NCBI RefSeq assembly: GCF_021134715.1
Contig: NC_060025.1
Span: forward strand, 2,046,001 to 2,110,000
Direction of reading: 5' to 3'
Source of the DNA: Daphnia pulex
Lineage: Eukaryota; Arthropoda; Branchiopoda; Diplostraca; Daphniidae
Length of the DNA: 64,000 nucleotides
In this document: positions 5,947 through 30,073 of the stretch, piece after piece
Layout of the letters: each line of letters begins with the position of its first letter
Position numbering within the stretch: position 1 is the stretch's first letter
Translations under genes and position numbers: made by a program
The notes under the pieces: generated by a model
What the model was told of the DNA's origin: nothing
Databases searched by the model: none
The model's input: only the letters and a program-made list of their open reading frames with translations

Positions 5947-8098
5947 TTAAATGGAAAAATTCCAATCGCGTTCGCATCGGGCGTGGCCCAAAACGTAATC
6001 TGTAACAATGAACGTGCTTCTTTCTGGGCAAGGTCCGCGAGTGCCCGGTTTGTAACATCCGGCTGGACCGTGAAAATGTCCTTTCCAGTAGAAATGTTTG
6101 CCGTCGATCTGTTTTTCCGGGCAAGGACTAGGGCGACAATTGGCTTCACGACGACTAGATGGCACCAGCCACATGTTCTTCTCACAAGGCCCGCGAGTGA
6201 AAGGCTCATAGCATTTATTCTCGGCAGTGTAAATAAGGTGAAATTCCTTCATGCATTGACACGAACCCATTTGTCTATTCAATCCGATGTAGACTTGATC
6301 CGTACCGCATTCGTAAACCAGCCAATCTCTATGTCGAGAATGTCGTTAATCTCTTGAACGTTAGTTTGCCTATGCAAATGTTATGGTTGTCAATCATTAA
6401 ATTGATTTGAAAAGAAATACCCCTTAGAAGATGCCGCGGGACGACAGGTTTTCGTGACAGGATCATAGCGGTAGCTAGGTGGATATCCGGTGCAGGGTTC
6501 TGCTGTCGATTTCAAATTGCATCTGGCCGATAACGAGGAAGATTCAGTTTCTTGACTGACTTTTGATAAGCAACCGTCCCATGGGTAATTTGAATAGGCG
6601 GAGCAATATGACGGCGCCTCTGCAGCTGGATTGTCACTTCCGTTTTCTTCGACCAAAATCTCGTTGGCCGGACACGGACCTCGGCTTCCTTTTGGACAGT
6701 AATAGCGTTGACCACACCTTGATGAAATAGATGAATAATTGATGTTAGCCTTTTCATGCGTTGTTTTGGCCGGATGTGACAACAAGCTTTTTCTCGCATA
6801 GTTTTGTGACTCAACAGTGTATACTATATTTATTTGTTAGATTTGGTTTATCTCTGATTCGGAACGGCCGCTTAGTTTGCCCTCATGTTATCAAGGTGTG
6901 GCAACTCCAAGCCAAGCACTTTGTGTTGCACTCTGCTGATAAGAATTATTTTTCAACACAAATATTTCTGTTACTTGAAAAAAAACTTTACAAAACGAAA
7001 TGCATATTTTCCAGCCCAAAATATTATGCGTTTCTTCCGGTTTCCGTTTTACTTGGAATCATTTTTAATACGTACTTGAAGGCAAATAGAAAATGTATAC
7101 CATATTTACGATTTTTAGGTTTACAAAAGATATTTATGACTTCAATAATAAAACAACAAAATGCGAGAGATATTAGTTGAAAAAAAGAAGCACAATTTTT
7201 GTTTTAATGGATAAATTGTTTGACTTTACATGGCAATGCTGTTTTTGTTTTGATTATTTTCATGTGTTTCAAATTGGTTCATTTATTTCTTATTTATCTC
7301 TAGATCTGCAATTAAATTCAAAGGAAGCTCCAAAGTATTGAAAATTCCCACTTTAGAATTTGATAACTATGTGCATAAACAAATGTTCAGGTCTCTGACC
7401 TCCCAAAATTAATCAATTTTTAGTAGTGAACATACATAGTAATTTTATAGTACTTACACTTTAATTGACACCAGCTCTAGTGGGGGTGGTCTAATTGTTG
7501 GAATTAAAACTGAATTTTGCTCAGTTGTTTCAGGTTTAGGTTGAAATCCTGGTTCAGATTCTCCATCAGGCTTGTCACCGTTACCATCTACCAATCCTGA
7601 CTCAATTTCTTCATCAGACTTGTCATCATTACCATCTACCAACTCTGATTCAGTTTCTCCACCTTGCTCGTTATCATTACCATCTACCAAGCCTGATTCA
7701 ATTTCTCCATCTGGCTCATCACCACTACCATCAACCGATGCTGACTCAAATTCTTCATCTGGTTCACCATCATTACCATCTACTAACCCTGACTCAATTT
7801 CACCGTCTGGCTGGTCACCACTACCATCTAACAACCCTGATCCAATTTCTTCATCCGGCTCGTCACCACTACCTTGATCAATCATCGTGTCATCCAGTAT
7901 TGTTTTTATTGCATTATTATTGATTTTCGATGTCTGGAATTTCTTTTGAACAATACCTCGTCGTACCAATGTGTGGGGCTCATCTTGGAAGAAAAACTCG
8001 TTGGTTGGATAAGCATCCCCGGAGCAAATAAACAGAATTTGCCCAGCAAAACTCCAAGCCACAACTGCAGTAAGCAAAAATTTGACACTAACCCCCAT
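5947..8098 (-). CDS. Secreted acidic Ser-Gly repeat protein with C-terminal DUF4789-type cysteine domain
   Basis: Three coding exons (8098-7458, 6717-6421, 6328-5947) join in phase to 439 residues. Exon 1 encodes a signal peptide (MGVSVKFLLTAVVAWSFAG), an NEFFFQDEP motif, a dibasic RR, then about six imperfect 20-22-residue acidic repeats of the type PDGEIESGLVDGN with several DGSGD sites. The reading frame appears to stop (GTG TAA), but AAAGT|GTAAGT is a strong donor, and splicing to the AAG acceptor at 6718 gives KVCGQRYYCPKGSRGPC. That junction matches the paralog at 10744-12559 in position and phase. The C-terminal 225 residues carry repeated GPC and CPE-type cysteine motifs typical of DUF4789. 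D/E-G-S-G-D sites fit glycosaminoglycan attachment (inference). Function unknown. Confidence 0.82.
7560..7880 (-). repeat. Coding tandem repeat, about 60-66 bp units
   Basis: Six imperfect copies encode acidic units ending VDGND or VDGSGD. On the plus strand the same units read as repeated CCATCTACCAA and GACTCAATTTC blocks. The copies differ at many third positions, so the array is not very recent. Confidence 0.8.
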
Positions 8099-8183
8099 TT
8101 CGGTAAGCAATATGTTGCAATAGTAACTTTTGGTGTAATTTCTTTAAACAGAATTTTATAACCGACTTCCACTCAGGACAACC

Positions 8184-17488: not shown

Positions 17489-17939
17489 GAATTGAATTTT
17501 TTATTCATAAACTTCCGACGTGCCGGCTGTTTTACTCGGTAGGGTAGAATTTGATGTACGTCATGTTTGAGACGAAGATAATGTTGAGATTAATTATGTG
17601 TCGTCACTCTATGTACGCTAGAACTAGAAGATGATCGTTCGTCCTACTCTTCCTATTGTTGTCAGGCTTGTTTTAAGTATTTATTTAAATTTTAATGTGT
17701 TTATTAATTTCCTAATTGAAGACCAGAGAGTAGATCCCTTTGTTTAATTTTGGTGTCATTTATTTACGTAAAATCTTAAGATGTGGTTTTTATATGTGAT
17801 TGCATTTTCATCATTTACCCCATTTTTTTTTGTAATTGGGTAAGCTTGTTTACCCTTTTAGAGTCCGTGAAATCTCTTACATAGCTTAACAAATTTAAGT
17901 AACTGCTTAATTCTACTTTACTCCGTTCATATGGCTCGT

Positions 17940-18030
17940 AGGCCTAGTGAACAGAAAGTTACCGACAACGAAAGTCCAGCCATCAACTGCATTCTTCCGA
18001 CTCGCAATAATAAATGAGTAAACTTTTAGT
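17940..18030 (+). pseudogene. Remnant leader of a third tyrosine-rich repeat gene
   Basis: CATCAACTGCATTCTTCCGACTCG, then AATGAGTAAAC, resembles the leaders of the two pseudogenes downstream (CCAACTGCATTCCTCATCG then ATGGGTAAAT; and the one before 19178). No coding body follows. The mirror copy is at about 29658-29748. Confidence 0.35.
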
Positions 18031-18189
18031 TTTTTTACATGGAGTTTCGTATCAATTCAATTAGTTTTTCTCTATGTGCACTCTTCCGTTACTTTATAAT
18101 GTCTTAAGTTAAATTTAGATATATTTTCAACATGTTCCAACTGATGCAGTGTTTATTAATTATTTTTCAATTACCAGTGTAGAGTTCAA

Positions 18190-19035
18190 CCTGCAGACCA
18201 GTTTGCATGTCCTTCATTTTCGAAGGTTACGTAGATCATTACGTAAAACTGTCAATGCGGTGGTGTAGAGGGTGGGTGAGAACTGGACGCGTTGCATCAT
18301 TTTCAAGCAGGTACAATAGCCGCAAGGCTCAGCCATTTGGTATTCATTTTGATTTTGGTTATTGTAGACCCATCCCCAGCAACGTCAACTTAAAGAAGGA
18401 AAGGCCAGTTTGCATTTTCTTCACGCTCGAAGGTCACGGAGATCATAACGTAAAACGTGTCATGCGACGGGGTAGAGGTTGGGTGAGAAAGGGACATGTT
18501 GCTTCATTATATGCTTCATAACCATTTGGTATTCATTTTGATATTGGTTTTTGTAGACCCATCCCCTGCAAAAGGAAAGGCCAGTTGGACGTTCGAAGGT
18601 CACGGAGATCATTACGTAAAACGTGCTATGCAGTGGTGTAGAGGTTGGGTGAGAACGACACGTGTTCATAACCATTTGGTATTCATTTTGATATTGGTTG
18701 TTGTAGATGTAGACCCATCCCCCAGCAACGTCAAAATGCAGAAGGAAAGGCCAGTTTGCATGTCTTTCATAATCGAAGGTCACGGAGAGTATTATTTAAA
18801 ACGCGTCATGCAGTGGTGTAGAGGTTGGGTGAGAACGGGATGTGTTACATAACCATTTGGTATTCATTTTGATATTGGCTGTTGTAGACCCATCCCCAGA
18901 AACTTCATCCTGCAAAAGGAAAGGGCAGTCCGCCTTTCCTTCACATTCGAAGGTCACGGAAATCATTACATAAAACGTATCATACCAGTGGTGTAGAGGT
19001 TGGGTGAGAACGGGACGTGTTTCATCATTTTTAAG
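18190..19035. repeat. Tandem array, about five copies of a 165-206 bp unit (left arm)
   Basis: Each unit contains GTAGAGGTTGGGTGAGAAC (at about 18262, 18468, 18634, 18813 and 18991), the word CATTTGGTATTCATTTTGAT, GTAGACCCATCCCC, GAAGGTCACGGAGATCATTA and a variable GGAAAGGCCAGTTTGC block. Units are open in some frames on both strands, which I read as a property of the repeat rather than coding. The array lies directly upstream of the first tyrosine-rich pseudogene. Confidence 0.85.
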
Positions 19036-19084
19036 CAGCTGCAATAGCCGCAAGGCTTATGAGGTGAGGGTGATCAAAAAATCG

Positions 19085-19121
19085 TATAAAACGAGAGAGA
19101 AAAGGCGCAGGTAAATCAGTT
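19085..19121 (+). promoter_or_regulatory. TATA box and TCAGTT initiator of the tyrosine-rich pseudogene
   Basis: TATAAAA at 19085-19091 and ATCAGTTGAG with the A at 19118 are 33 bases apart, an intact core promoter. It is mirrored at 28567-28603 in the right arm. Confidence 0.7.
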
Positions 19122-20163
19122 GAGGGAGCATCTCCGACACGGCAACAACTGCAGAGCTCTGTCTGTCAGTTCGCATCTATGGGTAAATATTCTGTCTTTT
19201 ACAAAGAGTGTGGTCTATCAATCCTTCTTTTGTTTATGTGTGCTTGTTATAATGTAATATTTATATTTAAATTTATAATTGTCTAGTAAACTGTGGCGTC
19301 GTGCTGCTGTTGGGTGTTTAATCATTAATGGCTGGGTCGACCACTGGTGTACCGATGTCTTCTTGGTATGGCGGATACCAAACCGCAACGCCACCGCCTT
19401 ACTACCCAAAAGCAACTTACGCAACGACCAGTTCCTGCACCGAGGTCTTCAAGTACTACACCACTAAAGCACCGGAGTTTTATAGCACAACTTACGCTGC
19501 CCCGAGCCACTACACTGACGCCATGAAGTTTTACTGTGCCCCGAGTTACTACACCACCAAGGCGACGTAGCAGGATTACGCATGCTGCCTCATCCTACTA
19601 CACCGAAGCTCCTAAGTATTACTCTGTTCTCATCTACTTATTGCACCGATTTTCCTAATTACTACTCTGTTCCCAGCTGCTACACCGAGACTCCCGCTGA
19701 TTACTACACCGAAGCGGCAAAGTACTACTCTGCCCCGATCTACACAACCACAACTGAGGCGGCCAAGTATTACGCTGCCCCGACTCACTGCACAGAAGCT
19801 GCTCTTTCGTACTACGTTGAACAGAAATACTACACCGATGCTCCAGTTCACTACACCACGGCCTACGCTACACCACGGCCTACGCTACACCACGGCCTAC
19901 GCTACACCGCAGCCTCCAAGTACTACACTGAAGACGCCGCCTACAACAACGTATGCTGCCTAGTTTACTACACCGAGGCTCCTAAGTACTAGATCACTAA
20001 GGCGTCGGAATTCTACACGTCTATGCATGCTGCCCCTGCCTACTCCACCGAGGCCCCGCATTACTACAACACTGAAGCGCTCAAGTACTACACTACAACC
20101 TGCGCTGCCCCGAGCTACTACACCTACGTCCCGGAGTATTACTGTGCGTATAAGGAGTCGTAA
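19118..20163 (+). pseudogene. Tyrosine-rich repeat protein gene, decayed (copy 1, left arm)
   Basis: The leader ends ATGG|GTAAAT and the acceptor TTGTCTAG precedes a signal peptide-like frame (NCGVVLLLGV) that hits TAA where the sister copy reads GTA. Beyond the stop the same frame continues as MAGSTTGVPMSSWYGGYQT, then units of the type KYYTTKAPEFYSTTYAAPSHYTD. More breaks occur at the TAG at 19568-19570, through a frame change near 19580, and at a TAG near 19990. The last unit ends PEYYCAYKES. Such Tyr/Thr/Ala/Pro repeats resemble secreted, cross-linkable structural proteins of arthropods (inference). The intact promoter and broken frame suggest a recently lost gene, or one started from the later ATG at 19328. 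Confidence 0.7.
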
Positions 20164-20237
20164 GAAAAAAGAGTGCCCGAACTGCAGTGCCCTATCTGTC
20201 ACCAACTGCATTCCTCATCGTGTAACCGATTCGCAAT

Positions 20238-20966
20238 TATGGGTAAATATTCTTTTTCTATTTGTTAAAATGCCTGTTAATATTTAATAACTATGGCGTC
20301 GTGCTCCTGTTGGCTGTTGTATCGTTGATGGCTGGGTTGACTGCTGGTGTAGCGATGTCTCCTTGGTATGGCGGAAACTGAACCGCAACGACGCCGCCTT
20401 CCTACACAACTAACGCAACAACCAGTTCCTGCGCCGATGTCTTCAAGTACTACACCACCAAAGCACCGGAGTTTTATAGCACAACTTACGCTGCCCCGAG
20501 CCACTACACTGATGCCCTGAAGTATTACTCTCCCTGAGTTACTACTCCATCTAGGCGACGGAGTTCTACATGACTACGCATGCTGCCACATTCTACTACA
20601 CCGAGACTTCTAAGTATTACTCTGTTCTCAGCTACTTATTGCAACGATTTTCCTAAATGCTACTCTGTTCCCAGCTGCTACACCGAGGCTCCCGCTGATT
20701 TCTCCACCAAGACGGTCGAATACTACACCGAAGCGGCAAAGTACTTCTCTGCCCCGATCTACACAACCACAACTGAGGCGGCCAGGTATTACGCAGTCCC
20801 GACTGGCTACACACAGGCCGCTCTTTCGTGCTACGTTGAACAGAAATACTACACTGATGCTCCAGTCTACTACACCACGACCCACGCTACACCTAGCTTC
20901 AACACCGCAGCCTCCAAGTACTACACCGAAGAAGCCGCCTATTACACAACTACGTACGCTGCCTAG
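20238..20966 (+). pseudogene. Tyrosine-rich repeat protein gene, decayed (copy 2, left arm)
   Basis: It begins at ATGGGTAAATATTC (20238), homologous to copy 1. The intron acceptor is missing. The signal peptide frame is intact (YGVVLLLAVVSLMAGLTAG) but soon reaches TGA (GGN then stop, where copy 1 reads GGYQT). The body shows the same units (KYYTTKAPEFYSTTYAAPSHYTD, EAAKYFSAPIYTTTTEAARYY) with frame shifts, ending TTTYAA then TAG. The damage differs from copy 1, so the two decayed separately after tandem duplication. Confidence 0.7.
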
Positions 20967-22487
20967 TTTACTACATCGACGAATTTAAGTATTGCCCTGC
21001 TCCAAACTACCAAACTTAGGTTCATATGTATTGCAATTTTTATGACTATCACCACTGCTCCGACCTACCTAAGTTCTGAAGTATTTCTCTGTATTTGTGA
21101 AAGATTGCTGAAATACAAGATTGATTTTTAAATTACAAGTGCATGTTTCTATTTTCTCCTTAAATACCTTCTCCTGCTGACAATTGCAAACTTGAAACTT
21201 GAACTTTGTAAACTTAATTGTTCTTGCCAAATACACTGATAAAAATTCAAACTCTTTTACATTTCAATAATATTTAAACTCTTCCCTTTTTATAAACTCG
21301 AAGATTGAAAGTCCAACAACCAAATTCTATTAAAAATTCAAAGTCCACACACCTATTTTTCTGCTAAGTCCAGACTTGTTTTTGAAAAAAAATTTAAAAA
21401 AATTCCCCTTACGAGATTTTCAAAAATTTATCGCGAAAAAGATTGATACGAATATTTTATTGCATACAAAATTTATTTTTATAACATTTTACATACATCA
21501 TATACATTTTTCCTGTGGCCCCCAGGAGGGGGGGCCTGTCGCTTTCTCTACCGCGATAATAACATGTTGCAAGTTATATGCAAATTATTATTTGTTTGGC
21601 GCAGAAAGCTTGTTTTATCTAGCAGTTCTCGACTGTTTCAAACCTGACATTGATCAGGTTGCCTCAGTCGTATACTGCATGATTGAATGAACTCAAAAGA
21701 CAACAGATCAAAATTTTAAAGCAGCATCACGAAATATAACTGGCAGAGCAATTTCATATGGCATGGATGAAAACACAAACACAAAAATTTTTAAATCAGG
21801 AACCCAGTTGCAACAGCTCAGCTACAACAGCACAGCAACTCCTGGATTACACTGCAACTGCATACAAAGGCTCAATCTGTCTTCGTCACACTTTCACCAT
21901 TTGGCTGCAACAAGGTAACCACCAGCGTTAAAGAAGTGTTTGTTATACCTGTTCAAGAAAACAAAATTAGTTTCGAGAAACACAACTGTGTACATATGCA
22001 TACTCATTATAACAAAAGAAAACAAAGAGTAACAGAAAACTATGCAGACTAACAGAATAACTTTGATATCTGATTCAAACTTTCTATAGAAGCAGAGCAA
22101 ATCGGTCTACTCTCTAGTCATGTTAACCAAATCTGTAGTACTTTAGCAAGACATTTGATCAAAATAATTACTTTTTTCTGTTGCATGAGATGAGACGTAC
22201 GCCTAAGAAGAGGCAGCGAGACACACGAGGCACGCCATTTCGGAAATGTACAGGCACTTCCAAGTCTGAGTTGAATGATTTGGCAAATTAGTTTCAACGT
22301 GCTAAATCACCTGTAAATTTTCAAATCAACATTTTACATTCAGTAACAATAGAAAATTAACAATAAATACCTTTTAATTTTCATCGTGAGGAGCGTGACA
22401 GCCAACAACCTACTTCAACTGCGTCTTGGAACAAAATGGCCGCTAAACGTCCCTGAAGACACTCGCGCTACCTGGTGGATTCATCCA
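20967..22487. other. Inner part of the left arm, no gene seen
   Basis: AT-rich DNA. Frames at 21376-21690 and 21894-22100 are perfectly mirrored in the right arm but lack coding features. The closing 100 bases are more GC-rich and mark where the arms stop matching. Confidence 0.5.
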
Positions 22488-22703
22488 CTTATTTAGGGTA
22501 TTGTTCCTAATTCGGGACACTTTTTGGCTATTGCCGTTTCGCATGCTTTAGTATAGGCCGAACACCTTCCTAAGTCGGGACACCGATAAAAAGTATGGGA
22601 CAAAGAAACCAAATGCGGGACAGTCGCCAGCGCCATCTACCGTTGGTTGTGTAGCAACAACCACTTTTTGACAGTAATGAAAACAGAAATCAAAACACAC
22701 GAT

Positions 22704-22769
22704 TGGTCTTACGGATAGCATGTTGACCTATCAATCTCACGTACAACAGGTTAGGGTTCGACTCCCTTC
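22704..22769 (+). repeat. tRNA-like module (weak A box, good B box)
   Basis: TTACGGATAGCATGTTGACC followed about 35 bases later by GGGTTCGACTCCC. The B box is good, the A box weak. It is probably a tRNA-derived SINE fragment rather than a tRNA gene. Confidence 0.4.
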
Positions 22770-23110
22770 ACATCTAAAAGTGTCTTTATATGAATAAACG
22801 TTAATCAACATATTTGACTGTCAGCATCCCTCTTATTCCGAATTGCACGACTATTGTCAACGGTATTACACAAGAGATCATTTTCGACAGTGTTTCATGG
22901 CACGTTGGATTGAGTGACGGATAACGAAACCGTTACTGTTTTTTGTTCATGTTTCAAATCCCAGGAAAGGCATTTTTTAAAATATTTCGAATATCGCCTC
23001 AGGGCTGTCCCGAATTTATAGCACAGTAAGGATACCCGTAAAATTAATTCTGCGTGTTCTATCCTACGATTTGCATCATACATTGAAGAGATCGCCCTAT
23101 TTTTGTATGT

Positions 23111-23183
23111 TCCCATGACTCAGTGGATAAGTGGCTGCCTGAGAATTGGATTATCTTTCTTGGTCGTTGGTTCGAATCTCGGG
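23111..23183 (+). repeat. tRNA-like module with A and B boxes
   Basis: ATGACTCAGTGGATAAGTGG and GGTTCGAATCTC at tRNA-like spacing. The ends pair only partly as an acceptor stem. It lies just after a block beginning GTCCCGAATTTATAGCACAG. Confidence 0.55.
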
Positions 23184-23266
23184 TAAGACATTTTTTAAAA
23201 TATTTCGAATATCGCCTCAGGGCTGTCCCGAATTTCTAGCACAGTAAGGATACCCGTAAAATAAAT

Positions 23267-23702
23267 TTGACGGTCATTTCCCTTTGGTTTTCATCACCTG
23301 TTGAAGAGTTCATCACATATTGTCGTATTCCGATGGCACAGTGGGTTCAGTCGTTGGCTGGGAACCACGTTATACTTTTGATTATTGGTTCAAATCCCAG
23401 GAAAGGTATTTTTAAAATTATTTCGAAAAACGCCTTAGGGCTGTCCCGAATTTATAGCACAGTAAGGATACCCGTAAAATAAATTTGACGGTCATTTCCC
23501 TTTGGTTTTCATCATCTGTTGAAGAGTTCATCACATATTGTCGTATTCCGATGGCACAGTGGGTTCAGTCGTTGGCTGGGAACCACGTTATACTTTTGAT
23601 TATTGGTTCAAATCCCAGGAAAGGTATTTTTAAAATTATTTCGAAAAACGCCTTAGGGCTGTCCCGAATTTATAGCACAGTAAGGATACCCGTAAAATTA
23701 AT
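23267..23702 (+). repeat. 218-bp tandem duplication containing tRNA-like modules
   Basis: Two nearly identical 218-bp units, seen as the same reading frame starting at 23267 and 23485. Each holds a tRNA-like module (TGGCACAGTGGGTTCAGTCG then GGTTCAAATCCC, at 23331-23401 and 23549-23619) followed by TTTTTAAAATTATTTCG and GTCCCGAATTTATAGCACAG. A diverged half-copy with its own module follows at 23769-23836. Confidence 0.85.
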
Positions 23703-23768
23703 TCGACGGCCACTTCTCATTGGTTTTTATCTTACATAAAAGAGTTCGAACAATATCGATATGTTGTA

Positions 23769-23836
23769 TTGACACAGTGGTTTAGTGCCTGTCTCTTACA
23801 AAATTTTTGGTTTGGTTCTGTGTTCGAATCTTACTT
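23769..23836 (+). repeat. tRNA-like module (diverged)
   Basis: TTGACACAGTGGTTTAGTGCC and TGTTCGAATC at tRNA-like spacing, in the third and most diverged copy of the local array. Confidence 0.45.
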
Positions 23837-24124
23837 TGGTTATTTTTAAAAAATATTTCAATCTGAAGTCTATCGAAATTATCTTTTGAATTTGAACACG
23901 GGGCTGAAAACGACATTCAATGAAAATGTCATCTATGTCAGCAATTAACCCGTTGAGCCATGAGAACAACGAAAGTCTTCTACATCGGGGAGATTATGTT
24001 GCCTGTCGAATTATTTTTACATACGGGTACACTACTGGCTATGGCTATGGCTTTTAGCTAACCCCTGTGTTATAAATTCGGGACACCCCTTGGGCGATAT
24101 TCGAAATATCTCAAAAAATGCCTT

Positions 24125-24197
24125 ACCCGAGATTCGAACCAACGACCAAGAAAGATAATCCGATTCCCAGGCAGCCACTTTAACCACTGAGCCATGG
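24125..24197 (-). repeat. tRNA-like module, inverted copy
   Basis: The reverse complement reads ATGGCTCAGTGGTTAAAGTGG and GGTTCGAATCTCGGG. It is the inverted counterpart of the module at 23111-23183, and homology continues through the flanking blocks (about 23007-23195 with 24118-24304). Confidence 0.55.
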
Positions 24198-24342
24198 GAA
24201 CATACAAAAATAGGGCGATCTCTTCAATGTATGATGCAAATCGTAGGATAGAACACGCAGAATTAATTTTACGGGTATCCTTACTGTGCTATAAATTCGG
24301 GACAGCCCTGAGGCGATTTCCGAAATAATATCAAAAATGCCT

Positions 24343-24412
24343 TGGATTTGAACCCACGACTGAGAGTTTATAAATGCGATTCTTAGTAGAGTCACTCAAC
24401 CCACTGTGCCAC
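24343..24412 (-). repeat. tRNA-like module, second minus-strand copy
   Basis: The reverse complement reads TTGTGGCACAGTGGGTTGAGTG and GTGGGTTCAAATCC, a good A box and B box pair. Confidence 0.5.
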
Positions 24413-26721
24413 AAGAATTTTTTGGAAAGTGTCTTAACAAAATTATATAGAATTAACAATTAGGGGCAAGACTCTTATACAAAATCATAAAAGACGTAAT
24501 GAAAAAAACTTTCATCATCAATATTCGACCTCACAATAAGTGTCGTCCAGGACGGAACTTAGAAGTTAGATAGTAAAACCCTGATTTTGACAGTTCAACT
24601 AGTGCCATCTTGCGTACATTATACTGTCCCGATTTTGTGTACTTGGGTGTCCCGATTTTGTGTTATGGGATTTATCGCCAGCAAGCTTCAAGTTCGATTT
24701 GATGGAAATTTCTTTATTTTTCTTGCATTTCTATGCATTGAATCTAAAGATTCTGTCGAGCTCTTTATTTTAAGACTAAATTCAGCTCAAAATAACCCCT
24801 AAATATCTTAAGATTGCAAGATTGCAAACGTCCCAAATCTAGCTTTTTTCTAAGTCCTTTTTCCCAATATATTTTTTGTCATATCTTTAAAATTTGTACA
24901 GCTACATTGACATAGTTGTATATAAACGTAGATCCGTTCATTTTCTTTAATTTCAGCAACTTTTCTTATCGAAACTCGGGTTAGTTTTTGTTTTAAACTG
25001 AAAAATGTTATTTCGTCCCAAATAAGAAATTTTCGGGCCTGTCCCGAATTAGGTACTTTACCCTAGTTAGCAGTTAGTCATGTTGAATCTAAAGGAAATA
25101 TGTCAATAAATATTCCAATATTCATCCATTAAAGTTAATGGTTACCTACTGCTCGTGTTTAACATTCAGAAAAATACTTATGAATGATGAATGAATGATA
25201 TCCACCAGGTAGCGCGACTGCGCGAGTGTCTTCAGGGACGTTTAGCGGCCATTTTGTTCCAAGACGCAGTTGAAGTAGGTTGTTGGCTGTCACGCTCCTC
25301 ACGATGAAAATTAAAAGGTATTTATTGTTAATTTTCTATTGTTACTGAATGTAAAATGTTGATTTGAAAATTTACAGGTGATTTAGCACGTTGAAACTAA
25401 TTTGCCAAATCATTCAACTCAGACTTGGAAGTGCCTGTACATTTCCGAAATGGCGTGCCTCGTGTGTCTCGCTGCCTCTTCTTAGGCGTACGTCTCATCT
25501 CATGCAACAGAAAAAAGTAATTATTTTGATCAAATGTCTTGCTAAAGTACTACAGATTTGGTTAACATGACTAGAGAGTAGACCGATTTGCTCTGCTTCT
25601 ATAGAAAGTTTGAATCAGATATCAAAGTTATTCTGTTAGTCTGCATAGTTTTCTGTTACTCTTTGTTTTCTTTTGTTATAATGAGTATGCATATGTACAC
25701 AGTTGTGTTTCTCGAAACTAATTTTGTTTTCTTGAACAGGTATAACAAACACTTCTTTAACGCTGGTGGTTACCTTGTTGCAGCCAAATGGTGAAAGTGT
25801 GACGAAGACAGATTGAGCCTTTGTATGCAGTTGCAGTGTAATCCAGGAGTTGCTGTGCTGTTGTAGCTGAGCTGTTGCAACTGGGTTCCTGATTTAAAAA
25901 TTTTTGTGTTTGTGTTTTCATCCATGCCATATGAAATTGCTCTGCCAGTTATATTTCGTGATGCTGCTTTAAAATTTTGATCTGTTGTCTTTTGAGTTCA
26001 TTCAATCATGCAGTATACGACTGAGGCAACCTGATCAATGTCAGGTTTGAAACAGTCGAGAACTGCTAGATAAAACAAGCTTTCTGCGCCAAACAAATAA
26101 TAATTTGCATATAACTTGCAACATGTTATTATCGCGGTAGAGAAAGCGACAGGCCCCCCCTCCTGGGGGCCACAGGAAAAATGTATATGATGTATGTAAA
26201 ATGTTATAAAAATAAATTTTGTATGCAATAAAATATTCGTATCAATCTTTTTCGCGATAAATTTTTGAAAATCTCGTAAGGGGAATTTTTTTAAATTTTT
26301 TTTCAAAAACAAGTCTGGACTTAGCAGAAAAATAGGTGTGTGGACTTTGAATTTTTAATAGAATTTGGTTGTTGGACTTTCAATCTTCGAGTTTATAAAA
26401 AGGGAAGAGTTTAAATATTATTGAAATGTAAAAGAGTTTGAATTTTTATCAGTGTATTTGGCAAGAACAATTAAGTTTACAAAGTTCAAGTTTCAAGTTT
26501 GCAATTGTCAGCAGGAGAAGGTATTTAAGGAGAAAATAGAAACATGCACTTGTAATTTAAAAATCAATCTTGTATTTCAGCAATCTTTCACAAATACAGA
26601 GAAATACTTCAGAACTTAGGTAGGTCGGAGCAGTGGTGATAGTCATAAAAATTGCAATACATATGAACCTAAGTTTGGTAGTTTGGAGCAGGGCAATACT
26701 TAAATTCGTCGATGTAGTAAA

Positions 26722-27450
26722 CTAGGCAGCGTACGTAGTTGTGTAATAGGCGGCTTCTTCGGTGTAGTACTTGGAGGCTGCGGTGTTGAAGCTAGGTGTA
26801 GCGTGGGTCGTGGTGTAGTAGACTGGAGCATCAGTGTAGTATTTCTGTTCAACGTAGCACGAAAGAGCGGCCTGTGTGTAGCCAGTCGGGACTGCGTAAT
26901 ACCTGGCCGCCTCAGTTGTGGTTGTGTAGATCGGGGCAGAGAAGTACTTTGCCGCTTCGGTGTAGTATTCGACCGTCTTGGTGGAGAAATCAGCGGGAGC
27001 CTCGGTGTAGCAGCTGGGAACAGAGTAGCATTTAGGAAAATCGTTGCAATAAGTAGCTGAGAACAGAGTAATACTTAGAAGTCTCGGTGTAGTAGAATGT
27101 GGCAGCATGCGTAGTCATGTAGAACTCCGTCGCCTAGATGGAGTAGTAACTCAGGGAGAGTAATACTTCAGGGCATCAGTGTAGTGGCTCGGGGCAGCGT
27201 AAGTTGTGCTATAAAACTCCGGTGCTTTGGTGGTGTAGTACTTGAAGACATCGGCGCAGGAACTGGTTGTTGCGTTAGTTGTGTAGGAAGGCGGCGTCGT
27301 TGCGGTTCAGTTTCCGCCATACCAAGGAGACATCGCTACACCAGCAGTCAACCCAGCCATCAACGATACAACAGCCAACAGGAGCACGACGCCATAGTTA
27401 TTAAATATTAACAGGCATATTAACAAATAGAAAAAGAATATTTACCCATA
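26722..27450 (-). pseudogene. Tyrosine-rich repeat protein gene, decayed (copy 2, right arm)
   Basis: Mirror of 20238-20966 with the same stop codons and missing acceptor. The only base difference noticed near it is A/T at 27419 (position 20269 on the left), in the lost intron. Confidence 0.7.
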
Positions 27451-27524
27451 ATTGCGAATCGGTTACACGATGAGGAATGCAGTTGGTGACAGATAGGGCA
27501 CTGCAGTTCGGGCACTCTTTTTTC

Positions 27525-28570
27525 TTACGACTCCTTATACGCACAGTAATACTCCGGGACGTAGGTGTAGTAGCTCGGGGCAGCGCAGGTTGTAGTGTAG
27601 TACTTGAGCGCTTCAGTGTTGTAGTAATGCGGGGCCTCGGTGGAGTAGGCAGGGGCAGCATGCATAGACGTGTAGAATTCCGACGCCTTAGTGATCTAGT
27701 ACTTAGGAGCCTCGGTGTAGTAAACTAGGCAGCATACGTTGTTGTAGGCGGCGTCTTCAGTGTAGTACTTGGAGGCTGCGGTGTAGCGTAGGCCGTGGTG
27801 TAGCGTAGGCCGTGGTGTAGCGTAGGCCGTGGTGTAGTGAACTGGAGCATCGGTGTAGTATTTCTGTTCAACGTAGTACGAAAGAGCAGCTTCTGTGCAG
27901 TGAGTCGGGGCAGCGTAATACTTGGCCGCCTCAGTTGTGGTTGTGTAGATCGGGGCAGAGTAGTACTTTGCCGCTTCGGTGTAGTAATCAGCGGGAGTCT
28001 CGGTGTAGCAGCTGGGAACAGAGTAGTAATTAGGAAAATCGGTGCAATAAGTAGATGAGAACAGAGTAATACTTAGGAGCTTCGGTGTAGTAGGATGAGG
28101 CAGCATGCGTAATCCTGCTACGTCGCCTTGGTGGTGTAGTAACTCGGGGCACAGTAAAACTTCATGGCGTCAGTGTAGTGGCTCGGGGCAGCGTAAGTTG
28201 TGCTATAAAACTCCGGTGCTTTAGTGGTGTAGTACTTGAAGACCTCGGTGCAGGAACTGGTCGTTGCGTAAGTTGCTTTTGGGTAGTAAGGCGGTGGCGT
28301 TGCGGTTTGGTATCCGCCATACCAAGAAGACATCGGTACACCAGTGGTCGACCCAGCCATTAATGATTAAACACCCAACAGCAGCACGACGCCACAGTTT
28401 ACTAGACAATTATAAATTTAAATATAAATATTACATTATAACAAGCACACATAAACAAAAGAAGGATTGATAGACCACACTCTTTGTAAAAGACAGAATA
28501 TTTACCCATAGATGCGAACTGACAGACAGAGCTCTGCAGTTGTTGCCGTGTCGGAGATGCTCCCTCAACT
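27525..28570 (-). pseudogene. Tyrosine-rich repeat protein gene, decayed (copy 1, right arm)
   Basis: Mirror of 19118-20163 with the same TAA in the signal peptide and the same later breaks. The TATA box and initiator are intact at 28567-28603. Shared lesions mean the gene was already broken before the arms became identical. Confidence 0.7.
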
Positions 28571-28652
28571 GATTTACCTGCGCCTTTTCTCTCTCGTTTT
28601 ATACGATTTTTTGATCACCCTCACCTCATAAGCCTTGCGGCTATTGCAGCTG

Positions 28653-29498
28653 CTTAAAAATGATGAAACACGTCCCGTTCTCACCCAACCTCTACACCAC
28701 TGGTATGATACGTTTTATGTAATGATTTCCGTGACCTTCGAATGTGAAGGAAAGGCGGACTGCCCTTTCCTTTTGCAGGATGAAGTTTCTGGGGATGGGT
28801 CTACAACAGCCAATATCAAAATGAATACCAAATGGTTATGTAACACATCCCGTTCTCACCCAACCTCTACACCACTGCATGACGCGTTTTAAATAATACT
28901 CTCCGTGACCTTCGATTATGAAAGACATGCAAACTGGCCTTTCCTTCTGCATTTTGACGTTGCTGGGGGATGGGTCTACATCTACAACAACCAATATCAA
29001 AATGAATACCAAATGGTTATGAACACGTGTCGTTCTCACCCAACCTCTACACCACTGCATAGCACGTTTTACGTAATGATCTCCGTGACCTTCGAACGTC
29101 CAACTGGCCTTTCCTTTTGCAGGGGATGGGTCTACAAAAACCAATATCAAAATGAATACCAAATGGTTATGAAGCATATAATGAAGCAACATGTCCCTTT
29201 CTCACCCAACCTCTACCCCGTCGCATGACACGTTTTACGTTATGATCTCCGTGACCTTCGAGCGTGAAGAAAATGCAAACTGGCCTTTCCTTCTTTAAGT
29301 TGACGTTGCTGGGGATGGGTCTACAATAACCAAAATCAAAATGAATACCAAATGGCTGAGCCTTGCGGCTATTGTACCTGCTTGAAAATGATGCAACGCG
29401 TCCAGTTCTCACCCACCCTCTACACCACCGCATTGACAGTTTTACGTAATGATCTACGTAACCTTCGAAAATGAAGGACATGCAAACTGGTCTGCAGG
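28653..29498. repeat. Tandem array, right-arm copy
   Basis: Mirror of the five-unit array at 18190-19035, same unit lengths and order. Confidence 0.85.
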
Positions 29499-30073
29499 TT
29501 GAACTCTACACTGGTAATTGAAAAATAATTAATAAACACTGCATCAGTTGGAACATGTTGAAAATATATCTAAATTTAACTTAAGACATTATAAAGTAAC
29601 GGAAGAGTGCACATAGAGAAAAACTAATTGAATTGATACGAAACTCCATGTAAAAAAATCTAACAATTTACTCATTATTGCGAGTCGGAAGAATGCAGTT
29701 GATGGCTGGACTTTCGTTGTCGGTAACTTTCTGTTCACTAGGCCTACGAGCCATATGAACGGAGTAAAGTAGAATTAAGCAGTTACTTAAATTTGTTAAG
29801 CTATGTAAGAGATTTCACGGACTCTCAAAGGGTAAACAAGCTTACCCAATTACAAAAAAAATGGGGTAAATGATGAAAATGCAATCACATATAAAAACCA
29901 CATCTTAAGATTTTACGTAAATAAATGACACCAAAATTAAACAAAGGGATCTACTCTCTGGTCTTCAATCGCTGAAATTTACAACTTGCTTTTTAGGAAA
30001 TTAATAAACACATTAAAATTTAAATAAATACATAAAACAAGCCTGACAACAATAGGACGAGTAGGACGATCAC

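Follow-up and report, generated by a model that had tools for sequence, protein, structure and literature searches.

What keeps the two arms of a giant palindrome nearly identical? This question is raised by a 64,000-nucleotide stretch of the Daphnia pulex genome (assembly GCF_021134715.1, contig NC_060025.1; C9:2046001-2110000, hereafter the window), where two inverted arms of about 4.85 kb surround a 2.7-kb spacer. The initial annotation, made from the sequence alone, offered three explanations, namely very recent formation, ongoing gene conversion, or a head-to-head assembly artefact, and likened the structure to the palindromes of sex chromosomes. To answer it, the window was compared with itself and with the genome (133,188,837 bases in 13 contigs). 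The results lead us to conclude that the window very probably bears an old giant palindrome, a member of a dispersed family in which arm-to-arm gene conversion at each locus keeps the arms near-identical. Thus, of the three explanations ongoing conversion gained support, from the core divergences, the gradient of differences towards the outer ends, the private indels shared by both arms and a remnant at a one-armed relative, while the other two lost it.

The window palindrome

When the window was aligned with itself by blastn, the inverted pair 17639-22468 / 30069-25220 was obtained, with 4,855 columns at 99.258% (99.26%) identity, 6 mismatches, 4 gap openings and 8,739 bits. This score is far above chance, and the palindrome is real. 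Inspected by eye, the arms continue about 13 bp inward beyond a short indel, to ~22481 / 25202. The features needed here are the following:

17639..22468, + strand: left palindrome arm (self-blastn; by eye, extends to ~22481 beyond a short indel)
25220..30069, − strand: right palindrome arm (self-blastn; by eye, begins at ~25202)
17639..18030, + strand: outer edge of the left arm (mirror ~29678-30069), with 5 of the 6 arm substitutions and all 4 gap openings
19286..22468, + strand: core used for the between-locus comparison (mirror 25220-28402)

The gaps open at 17716, 17831, 18012 and 18030, all within the outer 392 bp, and five of the six substitutions lie no more than 386 bp from the outer end, just as the earlier remark on indels at the edges had it. 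The remaining 18031-22468 (4.4 kb) has no indel against its mirror. The coordinates first given for the palindrome and the constant sum of mirrored positions (47688, across this indel-free part) proved correct, and so did the single residue by which a mirrored reading frame differs (FVKMPVNI / FVNMPVNI).

A dispersed family of palindromes

At least 21 two-armed members, the window included, were found on nine of the 12 chromosome-size contigs (four on C1, three on C2, one on C3, five on C5, one on C7, two on C9, one on C10, two on C11 and two on C12). A locus was called two-armed when arm pieces in both orientations lay no more than 15 kb apart, and the centres were read as well; two of the 21 (C5 at 9.717 Mb and C12 at 9.823 Mb) were counted from search matches only. 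The total is a lower bound, the genome searches having scored the best 38-40 candidates (all 32 in one arm-piece search). Both core arms were read in nine palindromes, and ten more were read near the centre only. The arms are 4-6.5 kb long. Arm substitutions were counted in 19 of the 21 members, 13 of which differ by at most 0.6% over the stretch read and six by 1.1-6.2%. When up to 3 mismatches were allowed, 55 places in the genome matched a 37-mer of the loop and none its reversed control.

Besides, a palindrome of a second kind at 6.147 Mb of C2 (C2_6147, C2:6145337-6153734) is built of another part of the family repeat; its 1,285-bp arms have 2 mismatches (99.84% identity), and centre-like sequence flanks it on one side. 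The stretches read, often just 1-2 kb past the centre, contained no second arm at C9:816, C9:957, C7:8874, C2:1547, C2:793, C2:2060, C8:10714 and C10:13804. These one-armed loci were detected with an inner-arm query, a route that accounts in part for the neatness of their breaks at the centre. C4 holds relatives that were left unclassified.

With members on nine of the 12 chromosome-size contigs, no confinement to a sex chromosome was found; D. pulex is not known to have sex chromosomes. The suggested likeness to sex-chromosome palindromes thus holds for the process and fails for the setting.

Arms are alike within loci and unlike between loci

In the core (~3.2 kb), the two arms of the nine palindromes differ by 0, 4, 0, 2, 0, 1, 23, 1 and 53 substitutions, most of the 23 (C10_13637) being located at the inner edge of the alignment. 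This corresponds to an arm-versus-arm divergence of 0-1.67%, against 1.4-9.6% between loci. A tree built from 21 arms showed both arms of a palindrome to be identical or sisters at 100/100 in eight of nine cases, while the arms of C11_1988 formed an unresolved trio with C11_2068, represented in the alignment and the tree by a single arm. Private core indels showed the same pattern: in eight palindromes, 70 are common to both arms and 3 confined to one, while C11_1988 has none of the first sort and 15 of the second. The arms of C11_1988 are about as distant from each other (1.67%) as from C11_2068 (2.0%), hence this palindrome is about as old as the split between the two loci. Judged by the other loci of the same genome, the arms within a locus appear to be more alike than the age of the structure would allow.

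Clustering of arm differences near the outer ends

Very recent formation also predicts arms that are alike, and therefore the position of the remaining differences is decisive. In eight palindromes, 81 of the 94 arm substitutions fall into the outermost 650 bp and only 13 into the other 36,321 bp (1.56% vs. 0.036%; binomial p 4e-59). The excess persisted when the outer 50 bp were excluded (65 substitutions in 4,800 bp, p 1e-47). All 24 substitutions of C9_610 are confined to the terminal 320 bp, the remaining 5.3 kb having none; at C1_4669, the terminal 438 bp hold 28 of 34. The decayed ninth palindrome, C11_1988, shows no gradient (7 in 650 bp vs. 54 in 4,172, p 0.85). When the arms were split at the core boundary instead, the outer part had an excess at p ≤0.02 in six of the nine loci. 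Since a single formation event would give the whole arm one age, the outer-end gradient argues for conversion over one recent formation.

One-armed relatives and the age of the structure

At the one-armed locus C9_957, the loop and stem are followed by the outer end of the right arm of C9_610 and then by 0.18 kb of the C9_610 right flank. Most simply, C9_957 would have lost most of one arm, and because the lost arm is still represented there by its outer end, the palindrome looks old. Very recent formation is thereby disfavoured twice, by the clustering of differences at the arm ends and by this remnant. C9_816 and C9_957 have a common flank further out, and both consist of an arm, the whole loop and a second arm of just ~20-30 bp. 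In C2_1547, one of the two flanks adjoins the inner end of the remaining arm.

The spacer, its loop and an inserted transposon

The 2.7-kb spacer of the window is composed of a loop of about 0.15 kb, common to close relatives, and a 2.57-kb transposon:

22482..22495, no strand: left piece of the original loop (by eye)
22496..25063, no strand: transposon within the loop (2,568 bp; ends and TA determined by eye against uninterrupted loops)
25064..25201, no strand: right piece of the original loop (common to close relatives)

In the close relatives on C1, C7 and C9 the loop is ~135-165 bp long, and in other family members the centre is related but longer, reaching up to ~1 kb. The 2,568-bp repeat is a later transposon insertion: compared by eye with the uninterrupted loops of relatives, it lies at a TA and has inverted ends, GGGTA..CCTAATTCGGGACA. 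It contains no long frame, and two of its stretches, ~2 kb together, have 98-100% identical copies on C6 and C7. It also carries imperfect ~218 bp tandem copies (22953-23731) with an inverted copy at 24065-24343, and a relative with 80% identity is located at C1:8741-9582, less than 10 kb from the end of contig C1.

Arm content and neighbouring frames

Two further features lie in the arms:

18195..19029, + strand: ~174 bp tandem repeats, close to the outer arm part (mirror 28659-29490)
19286..20979, + strand: tyrosine-rich repeat-protein gene in two tandem copies, frames in pieces (mirror ~26709-28402)

The repeat-protein frames appear disrupted in all 12 loci translated, the longest piece having 191 residues, and eight loci have one stop in common; two of the frame pieces gave no Pfam family match. 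The arm genes look dead, as far as their frames tell. The idea that they maintain the palindrome was abandoned, the frames being in pieces in 12 of 12 loci as translated without intron modelling or an intact relative. A structured RNA was likewise dropped (no Rfam match at the gathering score for six source sequences), as was a THAP-like exon noticed by eye in the centre (no Pfam match up to E 10).

Outside the palindrome, the frame at 43022-43501 matches SMN-interacting protein 1 (PF04938, E 2.4e-28), an ordinary host gene beside it, and the frame at 4605-5495 matches methyltransferase families (PF13383, E 2.8e-14). An array of 6.8 copies of a 48-bp unit (7548-7873) lies within the frame 7454-8110.

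A proposed conversion model and a rough rate

We propose that the hairpin-prone centre would be subject to breaks or stalled replication, followed by repair from the opposite arm. The copied tract would mostly cover the inner arm but rarely extend through the final few hundred bases of homology, such that the ends decay. Repair finishing by end-joining would remove an arm, thereby giving rise to one-armed members, and diverged arms such as those of C11_1988 would mean that conversion has ceased. As the arm genes look dead, conversion is more likely a by-product of the structure than a result of selection for genes.

Several observations weigh against this account. The 650-bp cut was set post hoc, when the data had already been seen, and the split at the core boundary gave no outer excess at C1_4445 (p 0.13), C10_13637 (1.0) and C11_1988 (0.28). 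The left side of C9_957 lacks the corresponding outer part, so that two losses or another route are needed to explain its history. C9_610 has a short inner-end indel in both arms, the window palindrome in just one, which hints that sequence is exchanged between loci too. The outermost 0.55 kb of the window arm matched nothing in the genome but its own mirror among the candidates scored, and the entry of unique sequence into both window arms is not explained by conversion. Finally, conversion is deduced from a single assembly.

GC-biased conversion was considered and dropped, there being no bias in these small numbers: 59 A/T-to-G/C vs. 74 G/C-to-A/T changes in seven two-armed loci, not counting C3 and C11_1988, and 13 vs. 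16 in two one-armed loci (p 1.0). This result is neutral with respect to conversion itself; for conversion in D. obtusa, PMC12926508 reports no GC bias. Assuming a balance between mutation and conversion, the D. pulex mutation rate u = 2.3-4.53e-9 given in the same paper and the divergence of 0.036% (13/36,321) yield a rough conversion rate (2u/divergence) of 1.3-2.5e-5 per site per generation. As a rough estimate, this lies close to 2.62e-5, the value that the paper gives for conversion-type loss of heterozygosity in D. obtusa (PMC12926508), although the two processes may differ.

Ends, motif T and alternative explanations

A terminal motif, T, lies at the inner end of the arm:

22455..22478, − strand: terminal motif T, inner arm end (C9:2068455-2068478)

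With up to 2 mismatches allowed, the genome contains motif T, CCACCAGGTRRCGCGAGTGTCTTC, 169 times (only part of them listed individually) and its reversed control not once. We take it to resemble the core CTCF binding motif; if it were bound by CTCF, the repeat would disperse such sites. At three loci motif T also closes units of 7.3-7.5 kb, which suggests a DNA transposon. This brings up a Foldback/Galileo-like transposon, with the arms as its long terminal inverted repeats, equalised at each transposition. Long inverted arms with internal tandem repeats, a variable middle, one-armed copies and the units closed by T would all suit such an element, and Galileo repeats are 98-100% identical within a copy (PMC3573991). 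However, T as the element end had to be given up, since the C2_6147 palindrome continues past it, and the outer ends of the palindromes vary by locus, with outer arm parts common to some loci and not to others. Ten palindromes were compared for direct repeats at their ends; none has one of 6 bp or longer, and the 5-bp repeats of four are mostly of low complexity. There is hence no convincing target-site duplication, though palindrome ends may differ from element ends. No transposase was found in the arms and centres (frame list, and Pfam on the pieces tried, which gave no match; no genome-wide transposase search was made). Nor does copying at transposition predict decayed ends. We therefore regard this explanation as rather unlikely: descent from a Foldback/Galileo-like element is possible, but the family behaves like a converting palindrome, and we do not assign it to Foldback/Galileo.

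It is quite unlikely, in our estimate, that the palindrome is itself a self-maintaining and perhaps mobile entity, by which a non-coding family persists; its break-prone centre would then overwrite one arm and occasionally shed an arm, and hairpin intermediates would seed new palindromes at other places.

Recent, independent fold-back copying from a one-armed progenitor already possessing the loop and a stem of ~30 bp would account for the structure of C9_816 and C9_957, with their stubs of a second arm, and for the locus-specific outer sequence included in the arms. Yet, with loci that have diverged by 1.4-9.6%, it would require a large number of very recent events, it fits neither the non-uniform arm differences, found at the ends in most loci, nor the outer arm remnant retained by C9_957, and we consider it very unlikely. 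An assembly artefact, in which two haplotypes or a chimeric read were joined head to head, typically gives near-identical arms too, but is most improbable here, given that related centres recur at many loci with different flanks, the arm differences lie regularly at the ends, the loop holds a separate transposon, and arm divergence spans 0 to 6% among the 19 measured members.

Comparison with known systems

Arm-to-arm conversion has been studied mostly in sex-chromosome palindromes, where function, age and the lack of crossing over are entangled. The Daphnia family offers about 20 replicate palindromes of one ancestry on many chromosomes, together with one-armed and decayed controls. Mutation-accumulation lines exist for the genus (PMC12926508), and the rate of conversion, its polarity and the end effect would be directly measurable in these palindromes. 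Our search of the literature on Daphnia palindromes, inverted repeats and duplications, foldback elements and gene conversion found no account of such structures.

Inverted gene pairs such as Hsp70 of Drosophila are also homogenised by conversion, but they are functional genes at one or two loci. Foldback/Galileo elements of Drosophila share with the Daphnia family the long, inverted, internally repeated arms, likeness within and difference between copies, and solo arms; Galileo makes target-site duplications of 7 bp and has relatives of the P transposase type (PMC3573991), neither of which was found in the Daphnia family. Palindromes of parthenogenetic animals, among them Adineta vaga and Folsomia candida, are likewise inverted blocks proposed as sites of conversion, yet they are collinear gene blocks, whereas the Daphnia palindromes form a single repeat family. 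Palindromes were counted in 23 parthenogens, the species given having between 1 and 19 in each genome, and D. pulex was left out because annotation was lacking (PMC7953838).

Palindromes of mammalian sex chromosomes, those of the Y being included here as general background, behave much like the Daphnia family. In both, arms more than 99% identical, in Daphnia very probably by arm-to-arm conversion as well, enclose unstable spacers, but the mammalian X/Y arms reach more than 1 Mb, their genes are thought to be functional and conversion on the primate X is GC-biased (PMC8981503 for the X), whereas the Daphnia arms are 4-6.5 kb long, lie on many chromosomes, and have dead-looking genes and no GC bias seen. 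Converting palindromes are already known from sex chromosomes; the Daphnia family is a dispersed one.

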